This document shows positions 6,746-19,222 of a stretch of DNA of 64,000 nt, in pieces (position 1 is the first letter of the stretch; each line of letters opens with the position of its first letter). Source of the DNA: Zoogloea dura. GTDB lineage: Bacteria > Pseudomonadota > Gammaproteobacteria > Burkholderiales > Rhodocyclaceae. The notes beneath the pieces were generated by a model. That model had not been told where the DNA came from. It saw only the letters and a list, made by a program, of their open reading frames with translations, and searched no databases. The stretch is taken from positions 1 to 64,000 of the forward strand of contig NZ_JABBGA010000027.1 in NCBI RefSeq assembly GCF_012927165.1. The letters run 5' to 3'. The position numbers were made by a program, and so were the translations under genes.

Positions 6746-7153
6746 TCAGCGTGGCATGGAGGGGCTCAGGGAGAAGAAGCCGCGCGCCTTGCTCTGCTCC
6801 CCGTGGCGAATGATGACCCGGTGGATCAGCCAGCGCCCGTCCCGCAGGTGCCAGGCTCTCACTGTTTCGGCGTAGGTCAGTTCCCTGCAGCTCCCCGGCC
6901 TGGCCGGGTCCGGCTCCTCCTCCAGGACATAACAGTAGGCGCAGTAGCAGGGCTGGTCGTCCTCGTCGCGTCCGAGGATGCGCGCGGCCTTCACCAGGTA
7001 TTCCTTGTAATGGTCGAAGTAGAGAGGCGCGACAGCTTGCTCCCGCCATTCTGCGGGGAGTCCCTCGCTCCAGCGGATCGCCGCTTCGGGGCGGCGGGCG
7101 TGGCCGCCCTTGATGTCGAAATACTGATGTGTGTAGTGCGCGTGCTGCGGCAT
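6746..7153 (-). CDS. Small uncharacterised protein with CxCxxC motif, divergent from a ModE-like box
   Basis: 135 residues with no signal peptide or membrane segment. I do not recognise the family. The centre carries PCYCAYCYV (a CxCxxC arrangement) followed by an acidic stretch and another Cys, suggesting a metal-binding site; the rest is rich in Arg, His and aromatic residues. The ATG has GGGAGG upstream. The start lies 25 bases from a strong ModE-like dyad that also faces the TonB-receptor operon, so it may belong to a molybdenum-responsive divergent unit. Codon use matches its neighbours. Confidence 0.6.
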
Positions 7154-7177
7154 GGTGAGGTGCCTCCCTGGATGATG

Positions 7178-7205
7178 TTTGATATATATTCAGATATATA
7201 ACGAT
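7178..7205. promoter_or_regulatory. ModE-box-like operator A
   Basis: Left half TTTGATATATA, six-base spacer TTCAGA, right half TATATAACGAT. The right half is identical to the ModE half-site (TATATAnCGAT) and the left half matches ATCGnTATATA at all but two positions. It lies 25 bases from the divergent 135-residue gene and about 300 bases before the TonB receptor gene; modE is encoded about 5.7 kb away. Confidence 0.75.
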
Positions 7206-7461
7206 ATAAGCATGGGGCATGCCTGGCGCTTGGGTGGGGCGCATGGTCTTGGCTTTGCCTATATTCAGCCAGCCTGATGCTGAGGTTATGGTTGAAATGG
7301 CTGAACGAAATATGTCGTAAAGACGCCATTTTGTGGGTTTTGTCGTGACGATGTATTTTTGTGTATATAGCCAATGTGGGCGTGTGCGGCAATCTCTGGC
7401 TGGGCGGGGGTATTTCGCTTCAGGCATGGAGCTTGCTGAAAAATCTCCATCCTGGTGCATT

Positions 7462-7490
7462 TTCGATATGTACTTTCTTATATATGTGAT
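7462..7490. promoter_or_regulatory. ModE-box-like operator B immediately before the TonB receptor gene
   Basis: Left half TTCGATATGTA matches ATCGnTATATA at all but two specified positions; after CTTTCT comes TATATATGTGAT, which keeps the TATATA core but needs a one-base shift to align the outer GAT. It ends 22 bases before the preferred start of the TonB receptor, a position suited to repression. Weaker than operator A. Confidence 0.5.
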
Positions 7491-7511
7491 TCTCGTTGCG
7501 AGGGGGATGGA

Positions 7512-9563
7512 ATGGGCAGGGTGTTTGGGGGGTGGATGTTGGGAGGGGTGTCGGTGCTGCTGGCGGGGGGCGCTGGGGCGGCCGACGGGGTCTTTGAGCT
7601 CGGTACTGTGGAGGTGGTGGGCAGCCCTGTGCCGTCGCTGGATCCGGCCGAGTCGGTGCTCAAGGCCGAGGTCTTGCGGCGCTTCAGCCGGGACACGCTG
7701 GGAGATGCCGTGGCCCTGACGCCCGGCATCAATCTCTCACGCAACAGCCGCAACGAGGACATCGTCTATCTGCGCGGTTTCGATGTGCGCCAGGTGCCCC
7801 TGTTCATCGACGGCATTCCGGCCTACGTGCCCTACGATGGCTACGTGGACTTCGGCCGCTTCGGCACCTCCGATCTGGCCGAGGTCCGGGTTGCCAAGGG
7901 TGCGGCGTCGCTCCTGTATGGTCCGAACACCCTGGGCGGGGCCATCAACCTGGTCAGCCGCAAGCCGCGCACCGCGCTGGAGGGTGACCTGCGGGCCGGG
8001 GTGGGCAGTGGCGGCCTGCAGACATATGCGCTCAACGTGGGCAGCAACCAGGGGGTGTGGTACTTCCAGCTGGGGGCGTCCTACGCCGACCGCAAGTGGT
8101 ATCCCCTGTCCAGCGACTTCAGCGCACGCAGTGTGCCGACCAGCGCGACGAACGGCGCCCGCAAGGTGCTGGAGAATGGCGGCCACCGGGAGAATTCCTA
8201 TTCCTCGGACTCCCGCCTGTCCTTCAAGCTGGGGCTGACACCGAATGTCACCGACGAATACGCGATCGGCTACGTGCGCCAGGACGGCAGCAAGGGCAAT
8301 CCGCCCTACGCGGGGAATGCGCCGGGGCAGTACCTCAACATCGGTGGTGGCGCCAACAGCCGTTTCTGGCGCTGGCCCTACTGGAACCTGGAGAGCGCCT
8401 ACTTCATCGGCAACATCGCGCTGGGCCGCGACCACATGCTCAAGGTGCGGGCGTACCAGGACAACTACGACAACAAGATCCTGGCTTATACCGACGGCAG
8501 CTACACCAGCCTGATCGCCAACAAGACCAATTTTCCCAGCTGGTACAGCGACTCGACCACCGGGGCCTCCGTGGAGCTGGCGAGCTTTGCCTTCAGCGGC
8601 CACGAGCTGGCGCTGGCCGCCCATTACAAGGAAGACAAGCACGCCGACAACGGCTTGAGCGGCACCAAGAACTACCGCGACGTGACCACCTCCCTGGCGG
8701 CCGAGGACACGATCCAGCTCTTCGAGCTGTGGCGCCTGCGCCTGGGGCTCAGCCACGACAAGCGGGATGCCCGCGAGGTGTACTACTGGCCCACCGGCGC
8801 CACCTCCGGCACCAACTGGCTGGTGGAGGTGGCCCGCAGCCTGGACGGCGGCAACGAAGCCTATGCCAGCGCGGCGCGCAAGACCCGCTTCCCGACCATC
8901 AAGGACCGCTACTCGGCCCGTCTTGGCAGCGCCCTGCCCAATCCCGACCTGAAGCCCGAGGAGGCGCTCAACTTCGAGACCGGCCTCAAGGGGCGGCCGT
9001 GGGCCGGCGCGCGTGGCCACGCGGCCCTGTTCTACAGCCGCATCGACAACCTGATGCAGGCCATGAACATCCTGCCGGTGTCCCTCTGCAACCAGCCCGG
9101 CCTGTCTGCCGCGACCTCCTGCAGCCAGTTGCAGAACATTGCCAAGGCGCGCCACGCGGGCATCGAGTTGTCGATTGAGCAGGACCTCGGCCGCGGCTGG
9201 CAGGTGGGTGGCAACTACACCTACCTGGACCGGGAGAACAGGAGCTCCGACAAGCCCCTCACCGACACGCCGCGCAACCGCGTGTTTGCCTACGCCAGCT
9301 GGAAGCCGTCGGACCGTTGGGAGTACCTGGGCTCGGTGGAGGCCGAGAACGGGCGCATGGTGGCGTACGGCAGTGGCAATGCGGCCAGCTATGTGAAGCT
9401 GTCCGGTCATGCCCTGGCCAACCTCAAGGTGGTCTACAAGCCGCTGCCCGCCGTGGCACTGGAGGGTGGAGCCAGCAACATCCTGGATGCCAACTACGCG
9501 CTGGCCGACGGCTATCCCATGCCGGGCCGGATGTGGTTTGCCAATGCCCGTTACCGCTTCTGA
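7512..9563 (+). CDS. TonB-dependent outer-membrane receptor, possibly molybdenum-regulated
   Basis: A 683-residue receptor with a signal peptide (MGRVFGGWMLGGVSVLLAGGAGAA), an N-terminal plug (LGDAVALTPGINLSRN..., IVYLRGFDVRQVPLFIDGIP, GAASLLYGPNTLGGAINLVSRKP) and a C-terminal beta-barrel ending in NARYRF, the terminal aromatic typical of outer-membrane proteins. It would take up a ligand at the outer membrane using TonB energy. An in-frame start at 7455 was rejected: ATG 7512 begins the signal peptide and follows AGGGGG. It heads an operon with a binding protein and a di-haem protein, and the ModE-like box just upstream suggests that the ligand is a molybdenum or tungsten species; that is inference. 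Confidence 0.88.
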   Translation: MGRVFGGWMLGGVSVLLAGGAGAADGVFELGTVEVVGSPVPSLDPAESVLKAEVLRRFSRDTLGDAVALTPGINLSRNSRNEDIVYLRGFDVRQVPLFIDGIPAYVPYDGYVDFGRFGTSDLAEVRVAKGAASLLYGPNTLGGAINLVSRKPRTALEGDLRAGVGSGGLQTYALNVGSNQGVWYFQLGASYADRKWYPLSSDFSARSVPTSATNGARKVLENGGHRENSYSSDSRLSFKLGLTPNVTDEYAIGYVRQDGSKGNPPYAGNAPGQYLNIGGGANSRFWRWPYWNLESAYFIGNIALGRDHMLKVRAYQDNYDNKILAYTDGSYTSLIANKTNFPSWYSDSTTGASVELASFAFSGHELALAAHYKEDKHADNGLSGTKNYRDVTTSLAAEDTIQLFELWRLRLGLSHDKRDAREVYYWPTGATSGTNWLVEVARSLDGGNEAYASAARKTRFPTIKDRYSARLGSALPNPDLKPEEALNFETGLKGRPWAGARGHAALFYSRIDNLMQAMNILPVSLCNQPGLSAATSCSQLQNIAKARHAGIELSIEQDLGRGWQVGGNYTYLDRENRSSDKPLTDTPRNRVFAYASWKPSDRWEYLGSVEAENGRMVAYGSGNAASYVKLSGHALANLKVVYKPLPAVALEGGASNILDANYALADGYPMPGRMWFANARYRF

Positions 9564-9573
9564 GGAGCCCATC

Positions 9574-10875
9574 ATGGCGCAGCGTCTTCAGCCGGCCCGT
9601 CGGGCCTTCATCCGCCAGGCCGGCGCATTGGCGGCCGCTGGTGCCAGCGCCCCCCTGTGGGCGGCCACACGCCGCGATGTGGTGGTGCTGACTGCCTATC
9701 CGGACGCGGTGGTGTCCCGTTTCGAGGCCGCCTTCGAGAAAGCCTGGCCCAGGTACCGCCTGCGGGTGGTCTGGCGCATGCCCCACGACGCGCTGCCCTA
9801 TCTGCGTCAGCCAGGGCAGGGGGGCGTGGATGTCTACTGGAGCGCGTCGCCGCGGACCTACGTCCAGTTGAAGGCCGAGAAGGCGCTGCGAAAGCTGCCG
9901 GTCGGCCTGGCTGGCCTGCCGGGCAGGGTCGGGGGCAGCGTGATCGACGATCCGGATGGCTACTTTGCCGCCTCCGAGGTGGCCGGCTACGGCTTTGCCG
10001 TGAATCCGGCCTATCTCGCCCGCGAAGGTCTGCCGGTGCCGGCGGACTGGACCGACCTGGCCCGGCCTGCTTTTGCCGGCCACCTGCTGGTGCCCGATCC
10101 GGTGGAGGTCGGCTTTGCCCCCGTACTGGTGGACATTCCGCTGCAGGCCTACGGCTGGGACAAGGGCTGGGCCCTGTGGAGCGCCATCGTCGCCAATGCC
10201 CGTTTCGTCGGGCGGGGTGGCAACTTCGTGTCCGATGAGATCGACGGCGGGCGCAGCGGGGTGGGATTGTCCATCGACTTCTTCGTGGCGGCGGCGATCG
10301 CCAACGGGGCGCCGCTGGACTTCGTCTATCCCCGCCAGGGCGGCGTCAATCCGGCGCATGTCGCGGTGATGGCCGGCAGCCCGAACCCGGCCGGTGCAAA
10401 GGCCTTTGTCGAATTCATCCTGTCGGAGGGCGGGCAGCGCATCCTGGCGCACCCGGACATCCGCAAGCTGCCGGTGCGGCCCTCGGTGTACGCCGGTCTG
10501 CCCTCCGGCTACCACAACCCCTTTGCCGTGGCGGAGCAGGGTGGATACCGCTATGACAACGGCCGCGGCAGGGGGCGGGCGGCACCCGTGGCCGCGGCTT
10601 TCGGGCAGGTCTTCGTGCAGCCCCGGGAGCGCCTCGCCGGGCTGTGGCGGCGCTTGCGGGCTGCCGACACGGCCACCTGGAGCAAGGCCTGGCCGCTGCT
10701 GACGGCGCCGCCTTGCGCGGAGGCGGAGGTCGACGATGCGGCCGTGCAGCAGGCCTTCTTTGCGCGTCGTGACGACCCCGCCGCCGAGGCCCGTGCGCGG
10801 GCCCTGGAGCTGGATTGGGCGGCCCGGGCCCAGGCGCGTTACGCCCGGGCCGAAGCCCTGCTGGGGGGCGCGTGA
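9574..10875 (+). CDS. Tat-exported extracellular solute-binding protein (family 1) without its own permease
   Basis: 433 residues. The N terminus has a twin-arginine signal (ARRAFIRQAGALAAAGASAPLWA). The body is of the iron(III)/thiamine-type periplasmic binding fold: DVVVLTAYPDAVVSRFEAAF..., GVDVYWSASPRTY, GYGFAVNPAYLA, GVGLSIDFFVAAAI, NPAGAKAFVEFILSEGGQRIL. About 100 extra residues follow the usual end of the fold. It starts 10 bases after the TonB receptor stop and overlaps the next gene (TGATG), so the three are almost surely co-transcribed. No ABC permease or ATPase lies beside it, so it may pass ligand to another transporter or act as a periplasmic scavenger. Confidence 0.78.
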   Translation: MAQRLQPARRAFIRQAGALAAAGASAPLWAATRRDVVVLTAYPDAVVSRFEAAFEKAWPRYRLRVVWRMPHDALPYLRQPGQGGVDVYWSASPRTYVQLKAEKALRKLPVGLAGLPGRVGGSVIDDPDGYFAASEVAGYGFAVNPAYLAREGLPVPADWTDLARPAFAGHLLVPDPVEVGFAPVLVDIPLQAYGWDKGWALWSAIVANARFVGRGGNFVSDEIDGGRSGVGLSIDFFVAAAIANGAPLDFVYPRQGGVNPAHVAVMAGSPNPAGAKAFVEFILSEGGQRILAHPDIRKLPVRPSVYAGLPSGYHNPFAVAEQGGYRYDNGRGRGRAAPVAAAFGQVFVQPRERLAGLWRRLRAADTATWSKAWPLLTAPPCAEAEVDDAAVQQAFFARRDDPAAEARARALELDWAARAQARYARAEALLGGA

Positions 10876-12227
10876 TGGGTGGCTTGCTGATGCGCCTGGT
10901 GCTCGCCGGGCTGGTCGGCTGCCTCAGCCCGGGGGTGGCCGGCGGCGAGGCCCGGGTTTTGTCGTGGCAGGTGGCGGATGCGGGGCGCGAGGCATTTTCA
11001 CGGCCCCTGGCGGATCTCACCGAGGCGGAGCGGGAGCGCTTCTTCCGCGGCCGTTCACTGTTCAACCAGAGCTGGGTGGTGGCGCCGGCAAAGGATGATC
11101 GGCTCGATGGGCTGGGGCCCTTGTACAACCGGCTGGCCTGCGTCTCCTGCCATGCCCGCAATGGCCGCGGCCTGCCTCCCGAGGGGCAGGGCGAACGCAT
11201 GCAGTCGATGCTGCTGCGGCTGTCGGTGGCGGGAGTGGGGTCGCACGGGGGGGCGCGCGCCCATCCGGTCTATGGCGAGCAGTTCAACGAAGAGGCGATT
11301 CCCGGCGTGACGCCGGAGGGGCGGGCCGAGCTGCGGTGGATCGAAGTACGACGACGCCTGCCCGACGGCTCCCTGGTCAGCCTGCGGCGGCCCCGGCTGA
11401 GCTTCCCGGAACTGGGTTACGGCGCCATGGGCCCGGTGCGCATCTCGCCGCGGGTGGGGCAGCAGGTGGTGGGGATGGGTCTGCTCGATGCGGTCTCCGA
11501 TGCCACGCTGGAGGCCCTGGCGGCGGAAGCGAAACCCGACGGAGTGAAGGGGCGGGTCAACCGGATCGGCAGCGAGCCCCCGGAGCTCGGGCGTTTTGGC
11601 CACAAGGCCAACATGAGCAGCCTGCGGGCCCAGATCGCTGGCGCCTTCCTGGGGGATCTGGGGATTACCTCGACCCTGCATCCGCAGGAGAACTGCACAC
11701 CGGCCCAGGCGGCGTGCCGGCGGGCGCCGAGGGGTGGTGAGCCGGAGCTGGATGACGCGCAGCTCGATGATGTGGAGTTCTACCTGGCCCACCTGGCGGT
11801 GCCGGCCCGCCGCGATATGAGGGCACCGCAGGTGCGGCAGGGGGAGTCGCTGTTTGCCGCGGCCGGCTGTGTCACCTGCCACCGGCCAGCCCTGCGCACT
11901 GGCGATTCGTCCCGCTTCCCGCGGCTGGCCGGGCTCGACATCGCGCCATACACCGACCTGCTGATCCACGACATGGGGCCGGGCTTGAGCGATGGCCGGC
12001 CGGATTTCCAGGCGTCCGGGCGGGAGTGGCGTACGCCGCCCCTGTGGGGCATCGGGCTGACCCGCAGGATCACCGAGCGGGAGCGCTATCTGCATGACGG
12101 CCGCGCCCGCAACCTGACCGAGGCCATCCTGTGGCATGGCGGCGAGGCCGCTGCTGCAAGGCGGCGCTTCGAAGCCCTGGCGCGTCCCCGGCGGGAGGCG
12201 CTGGTGGCCTTCCTGGAGAGCCTGTGA
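10875..12227 (+). CDS. Di-haem oxidoreductase, DUF1111 (putative thiol/peroxidase-like) family
   Basis: 450 residues with an N-terminal hydrophobic export signal and two c-type haem sites: CVSCH at residues 89-93 and CVTCH at 332-336. Segments such as LFNQSWVVAP...DGLGPLYNRLACVSCHARNGRG and ...LWGIGLTRRI...YLHDGRARNLTEAILWHGGEA are characteristic of DUF1111 proteins, distant relatives of MauG and cytochrome c peroxidases. It would be periplasmic. Family members often occur next to metal-uptake genes. The ATG overlaps the stop of the binding-protein gene. A redox step on the imported metal or its carrier is possible but not shown. Confidence 0.82.
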   Translation: MGGLLMRLVLAGLVGCLSPGVAGGEARVLSWQVADAGREAFSRPLADLTEAERERFFRGRSLFNQSWVVAPAKDDRLDGLGPLYNRLACVSCHARNGRGLPPEGQGERMQSMLLRLSVAGVGSHGGARAHPVYGEQFNEEAIPGVTPEGRAELRWIEVRRRLPDGSLVSLRRPRLSFPELGYGAMGPVRISPRVGQQVVGMGLLDAVSDATLEALAAEAKPDGVKGRVNRIGSEPPELGRFGHKANMSSLRAQIAGAFLGDLGITSTLHPQENCTPAQAACRRAPRGGEPELDDAQLDDVEFYLAHLAVPARRDMRAPQVRQGESLFAAAGCVTCHRPALRTGDSSRFPRLAGLDIAPYTDLLIHDMGPGLSDGRPDFQASGREWRTPPLWGIGLTRRITERERYLHDGRARNLTEAILWHGGEAAAARRRFEALARPRREALVAFLESL

Positions 12228-12267: not shown

Positions 12268-12295
12268 CTCGCTATATATCAGTGCATATAAAAGA
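12268..12295. promoter_or_regulatory. Half-conserved ModE-like box between convergent genes
   Basis: Left half CTCGCTATATA matches the ModE half-site except for one base; after TCAGTG the right half is only CATATAAAAGA. It lies between the ends of the DUF1111 and molbindin genes, so it is not placed to control an obvious promoter. Confidence 0.3.
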
Positions 12296-12332
12296 AAGAG
12301 GGGCGGTGGCAGGCACCATTGCGGTGAATGGG

Positions 12333-12761
12333 TCAGCTGCTCACGCCGATGATCACCGAGGGCGCCTTGAACACGGCCGCCGCGGCCACGCCCACCTTCA
12401 GGCCGAGGGCGGCGGCGCCTTCGCGGGTGATGGTGGCGTAAACGTTAAGGCCGTTGGCCAGGGTGATCGCCACCTCGGTGCTGACCGGTCCTTCGATGAG
12501 GGCCGAGACGCTGCCCTCGAGACGGTTGCGGGCCGACAGCCGGACGCCTGCTCCGTCGGCCAGCACCAGCACCGACGAGGCCTTGACCAGGGCCTTGACG
12601 GCCTTTCCGGCGACCAGCCCGAGCTCGCTGACGCTGTCGTTGGTCACGGTGGCGACGATCCGCAGGCCGCCGGGCAGGAGTACGTCGACCTCGGAGTTGA
12701 TGGCGCCGGGTTTGATGGCTTCGACGTTGCCGTCGAACACATTGCGGGCACTGATCTTCAT
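12333..12761 (-). CDS. modG: Molbindin with two Mop domains (ModG type)
   Basis: 142 residues made of two tandem Mop/TOBE units of about 68 residues: MKISARNVFDGNVEAIKPG...VLADGAG and VRLSARNRLEGSVSALIEG...VIIGVSS. The SARN...G.V motif and the V.A.I....LGL..G..V.A..KA.SV pattern are diagnostic. Di-Mop molbindins assemble into rings that bind molybdate or tungstate in the cytoplasm and buffer or store it. The gene is divergent from modE with a 158-base shared control region. The domain call is firm; the gene name follows the ModG architecture. Confidence 0.88.
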   Translation of the reverse strand: MKISARNVFDGNVEAIKPGAINSEVDVLLPGGLRIVATVTNDSVSELGLVAGKAVKALVKASSVLVLADGAGVRLSARNRLEGSVSALIEGPVSTEVAITLANGLNVYATITREGAAALGLKVGVAAAAVFKAPSVIIGVSS

Positions 12762-12887: not shown

Positions 12888-12915
12888 ACCGTTGTGTATG
12901 AATATATATAGGCGA
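12888..12915. promoter_or_regulatory. Degenerate ModE-like box overlapping the modE leader
   Basis: Left ACCGTTGTGTA, spacer TGAATA, right TATATAGGCGA: the inner TATATA of the right arm and the CGTT of the left arm fit the ModE half-sites, the outer right arm does not unless a base is inserted. It ends five bases before the modE ATG, in the modE/molbindin divergent region, and could serve autoregulation. Confidence 0.4.
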
Positions 12916-12919
12916 ATTG

Positions 12920-14529
<1,610 letters not shown>

Positions 14530-14531
14530 CC

Positions 14532-15221
14532 ATGGTGCTGACTCCCGACGACTGGATGGCAGTACGTCTGACGCTGGAGCTGGCCAGCCTGGTCACCGTG
14601 CTGTTGTTGCTCGTCGGTACGCCGATTGCTTGGTGGCTGGCGACGACGCGCTCCCGGTTCCGCAACGTCGTCGGCGCGATCGTGGCGCTGCCTATCGTGC
14701 TGCCGCCGACGGTGCTCGGCTTCTACCTGCTGATCCTGATGGGCCCGAACGGGCCGGTGGGGCAGATCACTCACTGGCTGGGGTTGGGGCGCTTACCCTT
14801 CACCTTTGCCGGACTGGTGATCGCCTCGGTGTTCTATTCCCTGCCGTTCGTGGTGCAGCCCATCCAGAACGCCTTCATGTCCATGGGCGCCCGCCCGCTG
14901 GAAGTCGCCGCCACCCTCAGGGCGTCGCCCTGGGACAGCTTCGTGCATGTCGCCCTTCCGCTGGCCCGGCCGGGCTTCATCACGGCTGCAGTGCTGGGTT
15001 TTGCCCATACCGTGGGGGAGTTTGGCGTAGTGCTGATGATAGGCGGCAATATTCCGGGCAAGACCCAGGTGCTTTCCGTGCAGATCTATAACCATGTGGA
15101 AGCCATCGAGTATGCCCAGGCCCATGGTCTGGCTGCCGGTCTGGTGGTGTTCTCCTTCCTCGTGCTGCTGGCCCTGTATTCGGTCGGCGGAGCGCGCAAC
15201 ACCCTGGGGGCGGGGCGATGA
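14532..15221 (+). CDS. modB: Molybdate ABC transporter permease ModB
   Basis: 229 residues, strongly hydrophobic with about five membrane helices. It carries the ABC permease EAA-type loop ([32 protein letters not shown]) that contacts the ATPase, and [20 protein letters not shown] typical of ModB. It starts two bases after modA and overlaps modC by four bases (ATGA), which implies translational coupling within the modABC operon. Confidence 0.95.
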
Positions 15222-16297
15222 GCGGCGGCCTCGACTTGCGGTGCCGGCTGCCCCTGGCGGATTTTGCCCTGGAGGCGGATCTGTCCCTGCCCGGGCGCGG
15301 GGTGACCGCCCTGTTCGGCCCTTCCGGGTCGGGCAAGACCACCTTGTTGCGCTGCGTGGCGGGCCTGGCCCGGGCCGCGGGGCGGGTGGAGATCAACGGG
15401 GAGTGCTGGCAGGACGATGCCCGGCGGATCTTCCTGCCCACTCACCAGCGGGCCCTCGGCTATGTCTTCCAGGAGGCCAGCCTGTTCGCCCACCTGTCGG
15501 TGAAGGCCAACCTGGAGTTCGGCCTCAAGCGCATCGCTCCGGCGGAGCGCAAGGTCGGTTGGGATGCGGCGCTCGAGCTGCTCGGCATCGGCCACCTGCT
15601 GGAGCGGGGCACGGGGGCGCTCTCGGGGGGCGAGCGCCAGCGCGTGGCGATCGCCCGCGCCCTGCTCACCAGCCCCCGCCTGCTGTTGATGGACGAACCC
15701 CTGGCCGCCCTCGACGCGCGCCGCAAGCAGGAGATCCTGCCCTACCTGGAGCGCCTGCACGACGAGCTGGCCATCCCCATCCTGTACGTCAGCCATTCTC
15801 CCGATGAAGTGGCCCGGCTGGCCGATCACCTGGTGCTGCTGGAGCAGGGCCGGGTGCTGGCCAGCGGGCCGATCGCCGAACTCCAGGCCCGCCTCGACCT
15901 TCCCCTGGCCCTCGACGAGGATGCCGCCGTGGTGGTCGAGGCGCAGGTGCTGGAGCACGACGAGGCCTATGCCCTGACCCGCCTCGGGCTGGCCCGCGGC
16001 TCCATCCAGGTGACCCGCAAGCCGCTGGCGGTAGGGGCCCGCGCGCGTATCAAGATCCAGGCGCGGGATGTGAGCATTGCCTTGTCGGCCGACAACCCTT
16101 CGAGCATCGTCAACCGCCTGCCGGCACGCATCCGCGGTTTTGGCGAGGCCGTGCACCCGGCCCAGTGCCTGGTGAGCCTCGATGCCGGCGGCACACTGCT
16201 GCTGGCGCGCATCACGCGCCTGTCCCGGGATCAGCTCGATCTGCGGGAAGGCATGGAGGTGGTGGCGCAGATCAAGTCGGTGGCCTTGCTCGGCTAG
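15218..16297 (+). CDS. modC: Molybdate ABC transporter ATP-binding protein ModC
   Basis: 359 residues. The nucleotide-binding domain has Walker [10 protein letters not shown] near residue 31, Q-loop [12 protein letters not shown], signature LSGGERQR, Walker [13 protein letters not shown] and the switch His in YVSHSPDEV. The C-terminal third holds the regulatory Mop/TOBE domain ([19 protein letters not shown]...[15 protein letters not shown]), which binds molybdate and can feedback-inhibit transport. It ends the modEABC operon; the next gene starts 172 bases later with its own leader. Confidence 0.95.
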
Positions 16298-17899: not shown

Positions 17900-19222
17900 T
17901 CAGGGCAAGGACTTGAGCCGCCGGTAAAGCGTCCGCTCGCTCATCCCGAGTCGTGCGGCCAGGGTTTTGCGGGAGCCTTGATGGGCACGCAGGGCGGCGG
18001 CCAGTTCTGCATCGTTCAAGCTGCCGGCCGGCACTGCCATGGCGGTGCTGCGGCAGGGCGGCTGCTCCGCTTGCCGTGGTGTGCCCGGATCATGCAGCTC
18101 CTCGGGCAGGTGGCGGCTTTGCAGAGTGTCTCCGTCGCACAGCAGGCTGGCCCGCTGCAGGATGTTGCGCAATTCACGCACATTGCCGGGGTAGTCGTAG
18201 TTTTCGAGGCAGGCCAGGGTGTCAGCCGCGATGCTCAGATGCCGTTCGGGCGCCACGCGCTCCAGCAGCGCGGCGGCCAGCAGTGCGATGTCTTCCCGGC
18301 GCTGGCGCAGCGGCGGCAGGCTGATCGGGAAGGTATTGACCCGATAGAAGAGGTCCTGGCGGAACTGCCCCTGTTCGACCAGAGACTTCAGCGGCCGGTG
18401 GGTGGCGGAGATCAGGCGGATGTCGGAGCGCAGCAGTTCGGTACTGCCCACGCGCCGATAGGTGCCGGTTTCCAGCAGGCGCAGGAGCTTGACCTGCATG
18501 GCCAGCGGGATGTCGCCCATCTCGTCGAGGAACAGGGTTCCGCCGCCGGCTGCTTCGACCAGCCCGATCCTGCGCGCGGTGGCGCCGGTGAAGGCCCCAC
18601 GTTCATGGCCGAAGAGCTCACTCTCGAACAGGGTTTCGGTGAGGCCGGAACAATCCACTGCCACGAACGGCCCCCTGGCGCGGCGGCTGGCATCGTGGAT
18701 GGCCTGGGCGACCAGCTCCTTGCCGGTGCCCGACTCTCCCTGCAACAGGACCGTGGCCTCTGAGGGGGCGACGCGGGCCACCAGCTCGAGCATGGCCCTG
18801 AAAGCGGGGGCCCGTCCGGTGAGTTGCGGTGCGTCGGCAAGCCCGCGTGCCACCGGCAGGGGCTCGAGCTTCTCGATGAAGTAGGCGATCTGGCCGTCAC
18901 TGCCACGCACGGGTGACAGCTCGATGTTCTCGTAGCTCTCACCTGCCGGGGTGTGGTGGAGATGCACCACCCTTTCCCGCTGTCCGGATTTGAGGCTGCG
19001 TGCCAGCGGGCAGGATTCGCCGGCCTGGTCGCAGGGGACCGGGTAGCGATGGGAGACCTCGAAGCAGGTGCGCCCGATGAGGTCGGCAGGGCGGCCGGAG
19101 CCGGCCCGGTAAGCCGCGTTGGCGGCCAGGATCCGGTAGTTGCGGTCGCACAGGATATGCGGTTCGGGCAGGGTCTCGAGGAAGGACACGAGCTCGGGCA
19201 GAGGGGGCGGAGTGGCGGTCAT
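17900..19222 (-). CDS. Sigma-54-dependent PAS-domain regulator, probable activator of the cyd operon
   Basis: 440 residues: N-terminal PAS domain (about 10-120), sigma-54 AAA+ domain (about 140-370) with Walker [15 protein letters not shown] loop and Walker [10 protein letters not shown], and a Fis-type helix-turn-helix at the end ([21 protein letters not shown]). The PAS domain holds several cysteines (IGRTCFEV...[15 protein letters not shown]), suggesting a redox or metal/haem-based signal. It is divergent from cydP-cydA, whose leader has a sigma-54 promoter and two related palindromes, so control of cytochrome bd is likely. Confidence 0.85.

Follow-up and report, generated by a model that had tools for sequence, protein, structure and literature searches.

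The stretch of Zoogloea dura DNA analysed here (64 kb; referred to as the window) carries a three-gene operon encoding a TonB-dependent receptor (TBDT), a solute-binding protein (SBP) of the twin-arginine (Tat) type and a di-haem protein of the DUF1111/DHOR family (referred to as DHOR); the three are together called the trio. The tight spacing described in an earlier note on this DNA was confirmed: 10 bases separated the TBDT and SBP genes, and the SBP and DHOR genes overlapped by 1 base (Table 1). A small divergent gene, orf135, was separated from the receptor gene by a gap of 358 bases, and molbindin (mop) and modEABC, placed by the same note beyond the operon, were all five identified by family matches. 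The nearest relatives of the SBP, with 84-91% identity, were found in Zoogloea records (L033-L035 and L039; L and G numbers are our handles for loci and genomes). A comparison of related loci showed that receptor, SBP and DHOR travel together and have predicted upstream ModE sites in common, and that most nitrogen-fixing holders possess a putative sigma-54 promoter, usually with a NifA-type site 80-125 bp upstream and a ModE-like box near the start.

Table 1. Genes and predicted regulatory sites at the trio locus (positions in the window)
Feature	Position	Strand	Remarks
orf135	6746-7153	-	Unnamed family of 135-amino-acid proteins; probable member of the molybdenum regulon; relatives adjoin mod genes
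ModE box 1 (predicted)	7178-7205		3/22 mismatches, right half exact; recurs in the Zoogloea alignment
Degenerate NifA-type site	7313-7328		TGT-N10-CCA, one mismatch; exact form absent in the window
ModE box 2 (predicted)	7347-7374		7 mismatches; upstream of the sigma-54 element; same place, 4-6 mismatches in ten relatives
Sigma-54 type -24/-12 element	7423-7437	+	GGCATGGAGCTTGCT; score 13.7 of 15.7; aligned with relatives
ModE box 3 (predicted)	7462-7489		8 mismatches; downstream of -12, near the expected transcription start
TBDT, plug and barrel	7512-9563	+	PF07715 and PF00593, both above cut-off
SBP, Tat-type	9574-10875	+	PF13343; RRAFIR leader; operon without permease gene
Di-haem DUF1111/DHOR protein	10875-12227	+	PF06537, 280.7 bits (cut-off 22)
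ModE-like box in the convergent DHOR/mop gap	12268-12297		5 mismatches, spacing 8
mop, molbindin	12333-12761	-	Two TOBE/Mop domains; TIGR00638, 131.6 bits
Weak ModE box before modE	12888-12915		7 mismatches; recurs in the alignment
modE	12920-13747	+	TIGR00637, 107.7 (cut-off 98.5)
modA	13774-14529	+	TIGR01256, 230.2 (cut-off 62.5)
modB	14532-15221	+	TIGR02141, 240.2 (cut-off 182.6)
modC	15218-16297	+	TIGR02142, 472.6 (cut-off 285.05)

Predicted ModE boxes before the operon and its relatives

Sites were scored at 22 positions against ATCGYTATATA-N6-TATATARCGAT, which we take to be the ModE consensus, with 10 resamples of the whole window from an order-1 Markov model as the background. The dyad at 7178-7205, read as a ModE site in the earlier note, proved to be real: it was the best site of the 64 kb, and no site with 5 or fewer mismatches occurred in the resamples. 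The second dyad of that note (7462-7490; box 3) was weak when taken alone, but its position and left core recurred in three other Zoogloea loci. Counterparts of this box with 2-5 mismatches were present in four Azonexaceae loci, and no ModE-like site with up to 8 mismatches was found at its place in L034 and L035. Two boxes that the note did not contain, at 7347-7374 and 12268-12297, were found by the consensus scan; the core of the latter was conserved in seven aligned Zoogloea-group loci with diverging flanks, and it may be the promoter of a small RNA or act as a roadblock. When the whole genome (5.83 Mb) was searched with a simplified ModE pattern (up to 3 mismatches), 4 places were obtained, all in this locus, and a reversed control pattern gave 6, of which 4 were in the same locus in a shifted register and 2 elsewhere. 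The count was not enriched, since the control gave 6 places versus 4; the notable features were the clustering of the matches and a best place with 1 mismatch to the simplified pattern. The number of sites by itself proves nothing, and the argument must therefore rest on the comparison between genomes.

Relatives of the SBP were gathered from contigs of named genomes (27 loci) and from three genome samples, of the order (250 genomes), the class (369) and the phylum (398), and longer stretches were taken for 25 places. The test set consisted of 26 loci with the SBP gene beside a receptor and/or DHOR gene, and the controls of 24 SBP relatives with neither; for each locus, the best ModE box in the 400 bp preceding the first gene was compared with 300 order-1 Markov resamples. 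The trio was complete in 21 of the 26 loci (counting L045, in which DHOR matched in two pieces). An upstream ModE box was detected at p≤0.003 in 22 loci. Among the controls, which also differed from the trio SBPs by an ABC permease or ATPase gene recognised in 19 of the 24 stretches, 23 had no box at p<0.01, the remaining one being L084 (p=0.007, 7 mismatches). No box passed the resample test in the 400 bp upstream of L041, L043, L050 and L067. The absence of boxes from homologous loci had been named in the earlier note as a refuting outcome; instead, boxes recurred before homologous operons, including nine positive loci in which no adjoining mod gene was recognised (L045-L047, L051, L061-L063, L066 and L075). 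In one of these, from Magnetospirillum fulvum (L051), only a 34% ABC ATPase match was found, approximately 3.7 kb off, and the ModE box, with a spacing of 7, had 1/22 mismatch.

A strong ModE match (E≤1e-24; 88-107 bits) was obtained in 15 of 16 genome handles, two genomes being counted under two handles each; the exception was G578, the genome of L067, with a best match of 35.6 bits and no box. Three Pseudomonas genomes contained the pattern with up to 2 mismatches at 3 places each, 2 of which were those of the trio; in P. donghuensis, the third was located just before modA and the other two before the trio. One of the 3 pattern places in G025 and in G072 was also that of the trio. Short ModE frames were located at G025:C14:211583-211825 and G072:C4:205504-205770, as if the regulators of these two genomes were without molybdate-binding Mop domains. 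Control by an iron regulator, named in the earlier note as the contrary outcome, was rejected: a Fur-like site, scored against what we assume to be the 19-base consensus, reached p≤0.01 in 0 of the 26 upstream regions (nearest, L066, p=0.025). Resampling, the control relatives and the reversed patterns were used to test chance or an AT-rich spacer as the source of the boxes, which was also set aside. These results gave strong comparative support to the central idea of the earlier note, the putative control of an outer-membrane uptake operon by ModE.

A putative sigma-54 and NifA layer

Using patterns that we take as the consensus of the sigma-54 -24/-12 element and of the NifA site (TGT-N10-ACA), a further putative regulatory layer was found, which is new here and absent from the earlier note. 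In 7 Zoogloea-group loci, the sigma-54 element preceded the receptor start by approximately 85-94 bp, and elements with a score of at least 13 of 15.7 outside a gene were present in 15 of the 26 loci versus 1 of the 24 controls. When matches inside genes were counted, these values were 16 (adding L061) and 2 (adding L073); L061 was excluded from the sigma-54 group because its element, with a score of 13.0, lies inside a gene. By our own grouping, the 15 loci represent about seven lineages, and the Fisher value of p=1e-4 ignores this descent.

In the 300 bp upstream of the 15 elements, TGT-N10-ACA occurred 21 times (some inside ModE boxes) versus 0.68 expected. After the removal of sites overlapping a ModE box by more than 4 bases, a NifA-type site within 160 bp was kept in 12 of the 15 loci, at -80 to -125 (resample mean 0.49, maximum 4 in 500). 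This filter was relaxed after a strict one, because the sites abut ModE boxes by 1-3 bases in eight loci. These were L034, L035, L036, L038, L039, L040, L042 and L044, with the box at approximately -82 to -46; L041, L043, L050 and L066 had the NifA-type site and no upstream ModE box there. Downstream of the sigma-54 element, a ModE-like box (up to 8 mismatches) was found in 12 of the 15 loci, the exceptions being L034, L035 and L043, and its position was approximately +25 to +72 in the Zoogloea and Azonexaceae loci.

With L033 left out of the search, nifH was above the curated cut-off in all 15 sigma-54 genomes and in 3 of the 11 remaining ones. NifA exceeded its cut-off in 15 of 19 genomes examined, including all 12 examined of the 15 sigma-54 ones (nifA of Z. 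dura: 693.4 bits, cut-off 528.85); among these 19, it was not found in G025, G039, G578 and G974, genomes without nifH. As a positive control, the nifH promoter of Z. dura contained a full-score sigma-54 element and two NifA-type sites, and 3 of four nifH promoters examined had a NifA-type site. In the genome of L048 (G979:C7), the only DHOR gene found shares its contig with nifH, approximately 10 kb from nifA.

Operon proteins, neighbouring genes and orf135

In an SBP tree containing 22 of the 26 trio loci (L035, L038, L039 and L046 were omitted as near-copies or cut), the 22 trio-type rows were separated from 31 rows of other relatives by a 100/100 branch; some branches were long. The trio SBPs have the same fold and superfamily as the AfuA, FbpA and 2-aminoethylphosphonate (2-AEP) binding proteins, but stand on a separate branch, and their fold points to anion or metal ligands and no single substrate. 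FbpA binds iron through a tyrosine pair. An invariant DFF (SBP residues 235-237; A1) seems to be placed at this pair, as judged by eye and with no superposition. The twin-arginine pair was found in many, not all, relatives, being absent in three Pseudomonas proteins and L051. In DHOR, two CxxCH motifs were invariant in 17 rows, and the gene of the operon was the only DHOR gene found in the Z. dura genome. The single DHOR sequence gave no match in the PDB at E≤0.1, and the matches of a profile were limited to parts of c-type cytochromes, peroxidases and further haem proteins. In P. donghuensis HYS, the DHOR gene (L045:11329-12163) looks broken or misassembled, because the family match falls in two pieces; its relatives in L046 and L047 matched in one.

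Further links to molybdenum were found around the trio, with modE, mop, modABC or modD nearby in many loci. L043 has modD (272.3 bits, cut-off 178.85) after DHOR, and in L048 and L049 an additional ModC-, ModA- and ModB-like gene set separates DHOR from mop (family-scanned in L048 only). In L036 (3360-7585), a divergent second TonB barrel with SBP_bac_11 and Peripla_BP_2 proteins has the intergenic region with the ModE boxes in common with the trio; large minus-strand open reading frames at the same place in L038 and L040 may encode a second receptor there too. In P. donghuensis, RND efflux genes (HlyD- and AcrB-type; L045:12353-16786) follow DHOR, and they could serve metallophore export or be unrelated to the trio. 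No gene for chelator biosynthesis was recognised among 18 scanned neighbour proteins, a minority of the neighbours. Elsewhere in the window, a minus-strand open reading frame (17900-19222), beside a cytochrome bd-like operon, resembles by eye a sigma-54 enhancer-binding regulator.

The product of orf135 had no Pfam or NCBIfam match. The CxCxxC motif pointed out in the earlier note is present in this protein, but only C69 was invariant within the family. Missed by that note was the association of the family with mod genes: a profile matched in 17 of the 249 other genomes of the order sample, in 14 of which modE, modA, modB, modC or mop was located within approximately 1.5 kb, and two of the remaining three have a box with up to 4 mismatches. 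Therefore, orf135 is a probable member of the molybdenum regulon, as judged from this gene context. In four Azonexaceae loci, the boxes are followed by orf135 as the leading gene of the operon; in L036, L038 and L040, it lies 3.8-5.6 kb from the receptor gene, with a 6-mismatch box just upstream in L036, listed sites inside the gene in L038 and none listed in L040. A sigma-54 element (score of at least 13.7) was present in the promoters of 2 of the 17 relatives (L099 and L107), and NifA control is therefore not general for this family. The AlphaFold2 (AF2) model was all-beta, with a mean pLDDT of 77, and its fold had no PDB match at E≤0.001. Since no export signal was seen by eye, the protein may be a cytoplasmic helper in the same regulon.

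A candidate route for molybdenum through the outer membrane

ModABC carries the free oxyanion and ModE senses molybdate. The comparisons described above suggest that the operon serves to scavenge molybdenum by uptake through the outer membrane; ModE-molybdate would repress it and, in the majority of the diazotrophs seen, NifA would activate it (probability of roughly 0.6). A molybdenum or tungsten species is a plausible substrate, and DHOR may plausibly act on the metal or its carrier. In the presence of molybdate, ModE-molybdate would occlude the activator site and the transcription start; under a shortage of molybdenum, combined in diazotrophs with one of fixed nitrogen, the operon would be expressed. 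A molybdenum species, most probably chelated, would enter the periplasm through the receptor and be captured there by the Tat-exported SBP; oxidation of the carrier or ligand by the di-haem protein would then release molybdate for transport over the inner membrane by ModABC. Three points favour a chelate: small oxyanions normally cross the outer membrane through porins, no permease gene accompanies that of the capture protein in the operon, and di-haem enzymes occur in other metal-uptake or chelate loci (PMC3143127 and PMC3621798). Only tentatively do we propose the complete scheme, in which the trio would form the first outer-membrane import system dedicated to molybdenum: the TonB receptor would take up a chelate of the metal, the SBP would capture it, and the di-haem enzyme would oxidise the carrier to release molybdate, with ModE-molybdate and NifA competing at adjoining promoter sites in many diazotrophs.

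The closest experimental precedent for this control logic is morAB of Rhodobacter capsulatus, which has been shown by experiment to depend on NifA and to be repressed by MopA/MopB. Its mor genes (morAB and morC) and mopA-modABC resemble the present locus in that morAB is molybdate-transport-like, requires NifA and is repressed by the ModE-type MopA/MopB, but they encode an inner-membrane ABC transporter, and an outer-membrane receptor or di-haem protein is not described in the available portion of that report (PMC6925177). In Pseudomonas stutzeri, modAB is listed among predicted NifA-sigma-54 promoters (PMC2820453). Methanobactin operons (MbnT, MbnH/MbnP; PMC3621798) likewise combine a TonB transporter of a metal chelate with a di-haem peroxidase and a partner; they differ in that the metal is copper and that MbnH is described as MauG-like, whereas the protein of the trio belongs to PF06537.

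The operon may instead belong to the ModE (and NifA) regulon and import iron or another metal needed under molybdenum shortage, e.g., for other enzymes or an alternative nitrogenase. In favour of this, di-haem DUF1111 proteins adjoin periplasmic imelysin-like iron-uptake proteins; these loci differ from the trio in containing the imelysin-like protein, not SBP_bac_6, and in handling iron, and no ModE is mentioned in the accessible text (PMC3143127). Siderophore-receptor operons of Azotobacter vinelandii are similarly sigma-54-driven TonB receptors, induced by VnfA1 and made only without molybdenum and vanadium, and they are the nearest experimental precedent for receptors of this promoter type under such a lack; their differences are the VnfA1 motif GT(T/A)C-N6-GTAC and the ABC components, and DUF1111 is not mentioned in the part of the report at hand (PMC9542535). 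The SBP fold is also near FbpA as well as AfuA. We nevertheless consider iron import unlikely, given the lack of Fur-like sites at p≤0.01 in the 26 upstream regions, the occurrence of the system under ModE boxes also in three Pseudomonas genomes with no nifH above the cut-off, and the D-F-F residues that seem, as placed by eye, to stand at the tyrosine pair of FbpA.

Transport of free molybdate or tungstate by the receptor, with DHOR as an accessory electron-transfer or stress protein, would agree with the oxyanion specificity of the adjoining ModABC, with the molybdate sensing by ModE and with the lack of a recognised chelator biosynthesis gene in the scanned minority of neighbours. We judge this quite unlikely, because such small oxyanions normally pass porins, and because the permease-less SBP and the second receptor of L036 with its Peripla_BP_2 protein fit a bulkier ligand. 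It is very improbable that the boxes belong to modE or to a TATATA-rich spacer and that the operon is merely a neighbour of the mod genes: reversed patterns did match the same AT-rich places in the Z. dura genome and were about as frequent in several others, but boxes precede nine operons without a recognised mod gene alongside and are nearly absent in the controls, and the spacing between box and sigma-54 element was narrow in the Zoogloea and Azonexaceae loci.

On the other hand, several results weigh against a molybdenum-scavenging system under ModE and NifA. The trio was incomplete in L051 and L067 (no DHOR), L060 and L061 (no receptor found nearby) and L039 (cut at the contig end). The genomes of L041 and L050 have ModE elsewhere, yet no box before the operon, and L043 has only a 6-mismatch site, farther upstream than the tested stretch. 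ModE was above the curated cut-off in only 10 of the 16 genome handles, and the best matches of G025 (L063) and G072 (L062) were in frames of 118 and 152 amino acids, too short for Mop domains. The N6 pattern (up to 2 mismatches) occurred at 0 places in G487, G758 and G978; the reversed control was found at 3 places in G974, 2 in G975, 2 in G976, 1 in G025, 3 in G072 and 0 in G487, G758 and G978, and reversed and true counts were alike in Z. dura (6 and 4), P. donghuensis (3 and 3) and G072 (3 and 3). Taken alone, the sigma-54 element of the window had p=0.038, and individually only 8 of the 26 loci reached p≤0.02. Under the strictest filter (no overlap with even a weak box), 4 of the 15 loci kept a NifA-type site (resample mean 0.51, maximum 4); the window, where the site is degenerate, L048 and L049 had no exact one. 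The genomes of L051, L060 and L075 have nifH without the sigma-54 element. Among the solved structures listed as nearest in fold to the SBP, the ligands are sugar phosphates, ferric iron or metal-citrate.

Nitrogen fixation and the use of nitrate can both be limited by molybdenum, and Azotobacter releases molybdenum-binding compounds that are available for uptake (PMC3440940). Among the matches listed in a search of the open-access literature, no title or abstract start tied ModE to a TonB receptor, and no receptor taking molybdenum-binding complexes through the outer membrane was named. The operon, which occurs in strains including Zoogloea sp. LCSB751, Azonexus sp. R2A61 and Pseudomonas donghuensis HYS, is a concrete candidate for that outer-membrane step, with a readable regulatory code. 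In addition, orf135 represents an unstudied protein family that is now pointed toward molybdenum biology. If the trio functions as proposed, it would help explain how scarce molybdenum passes through the outer membrane.

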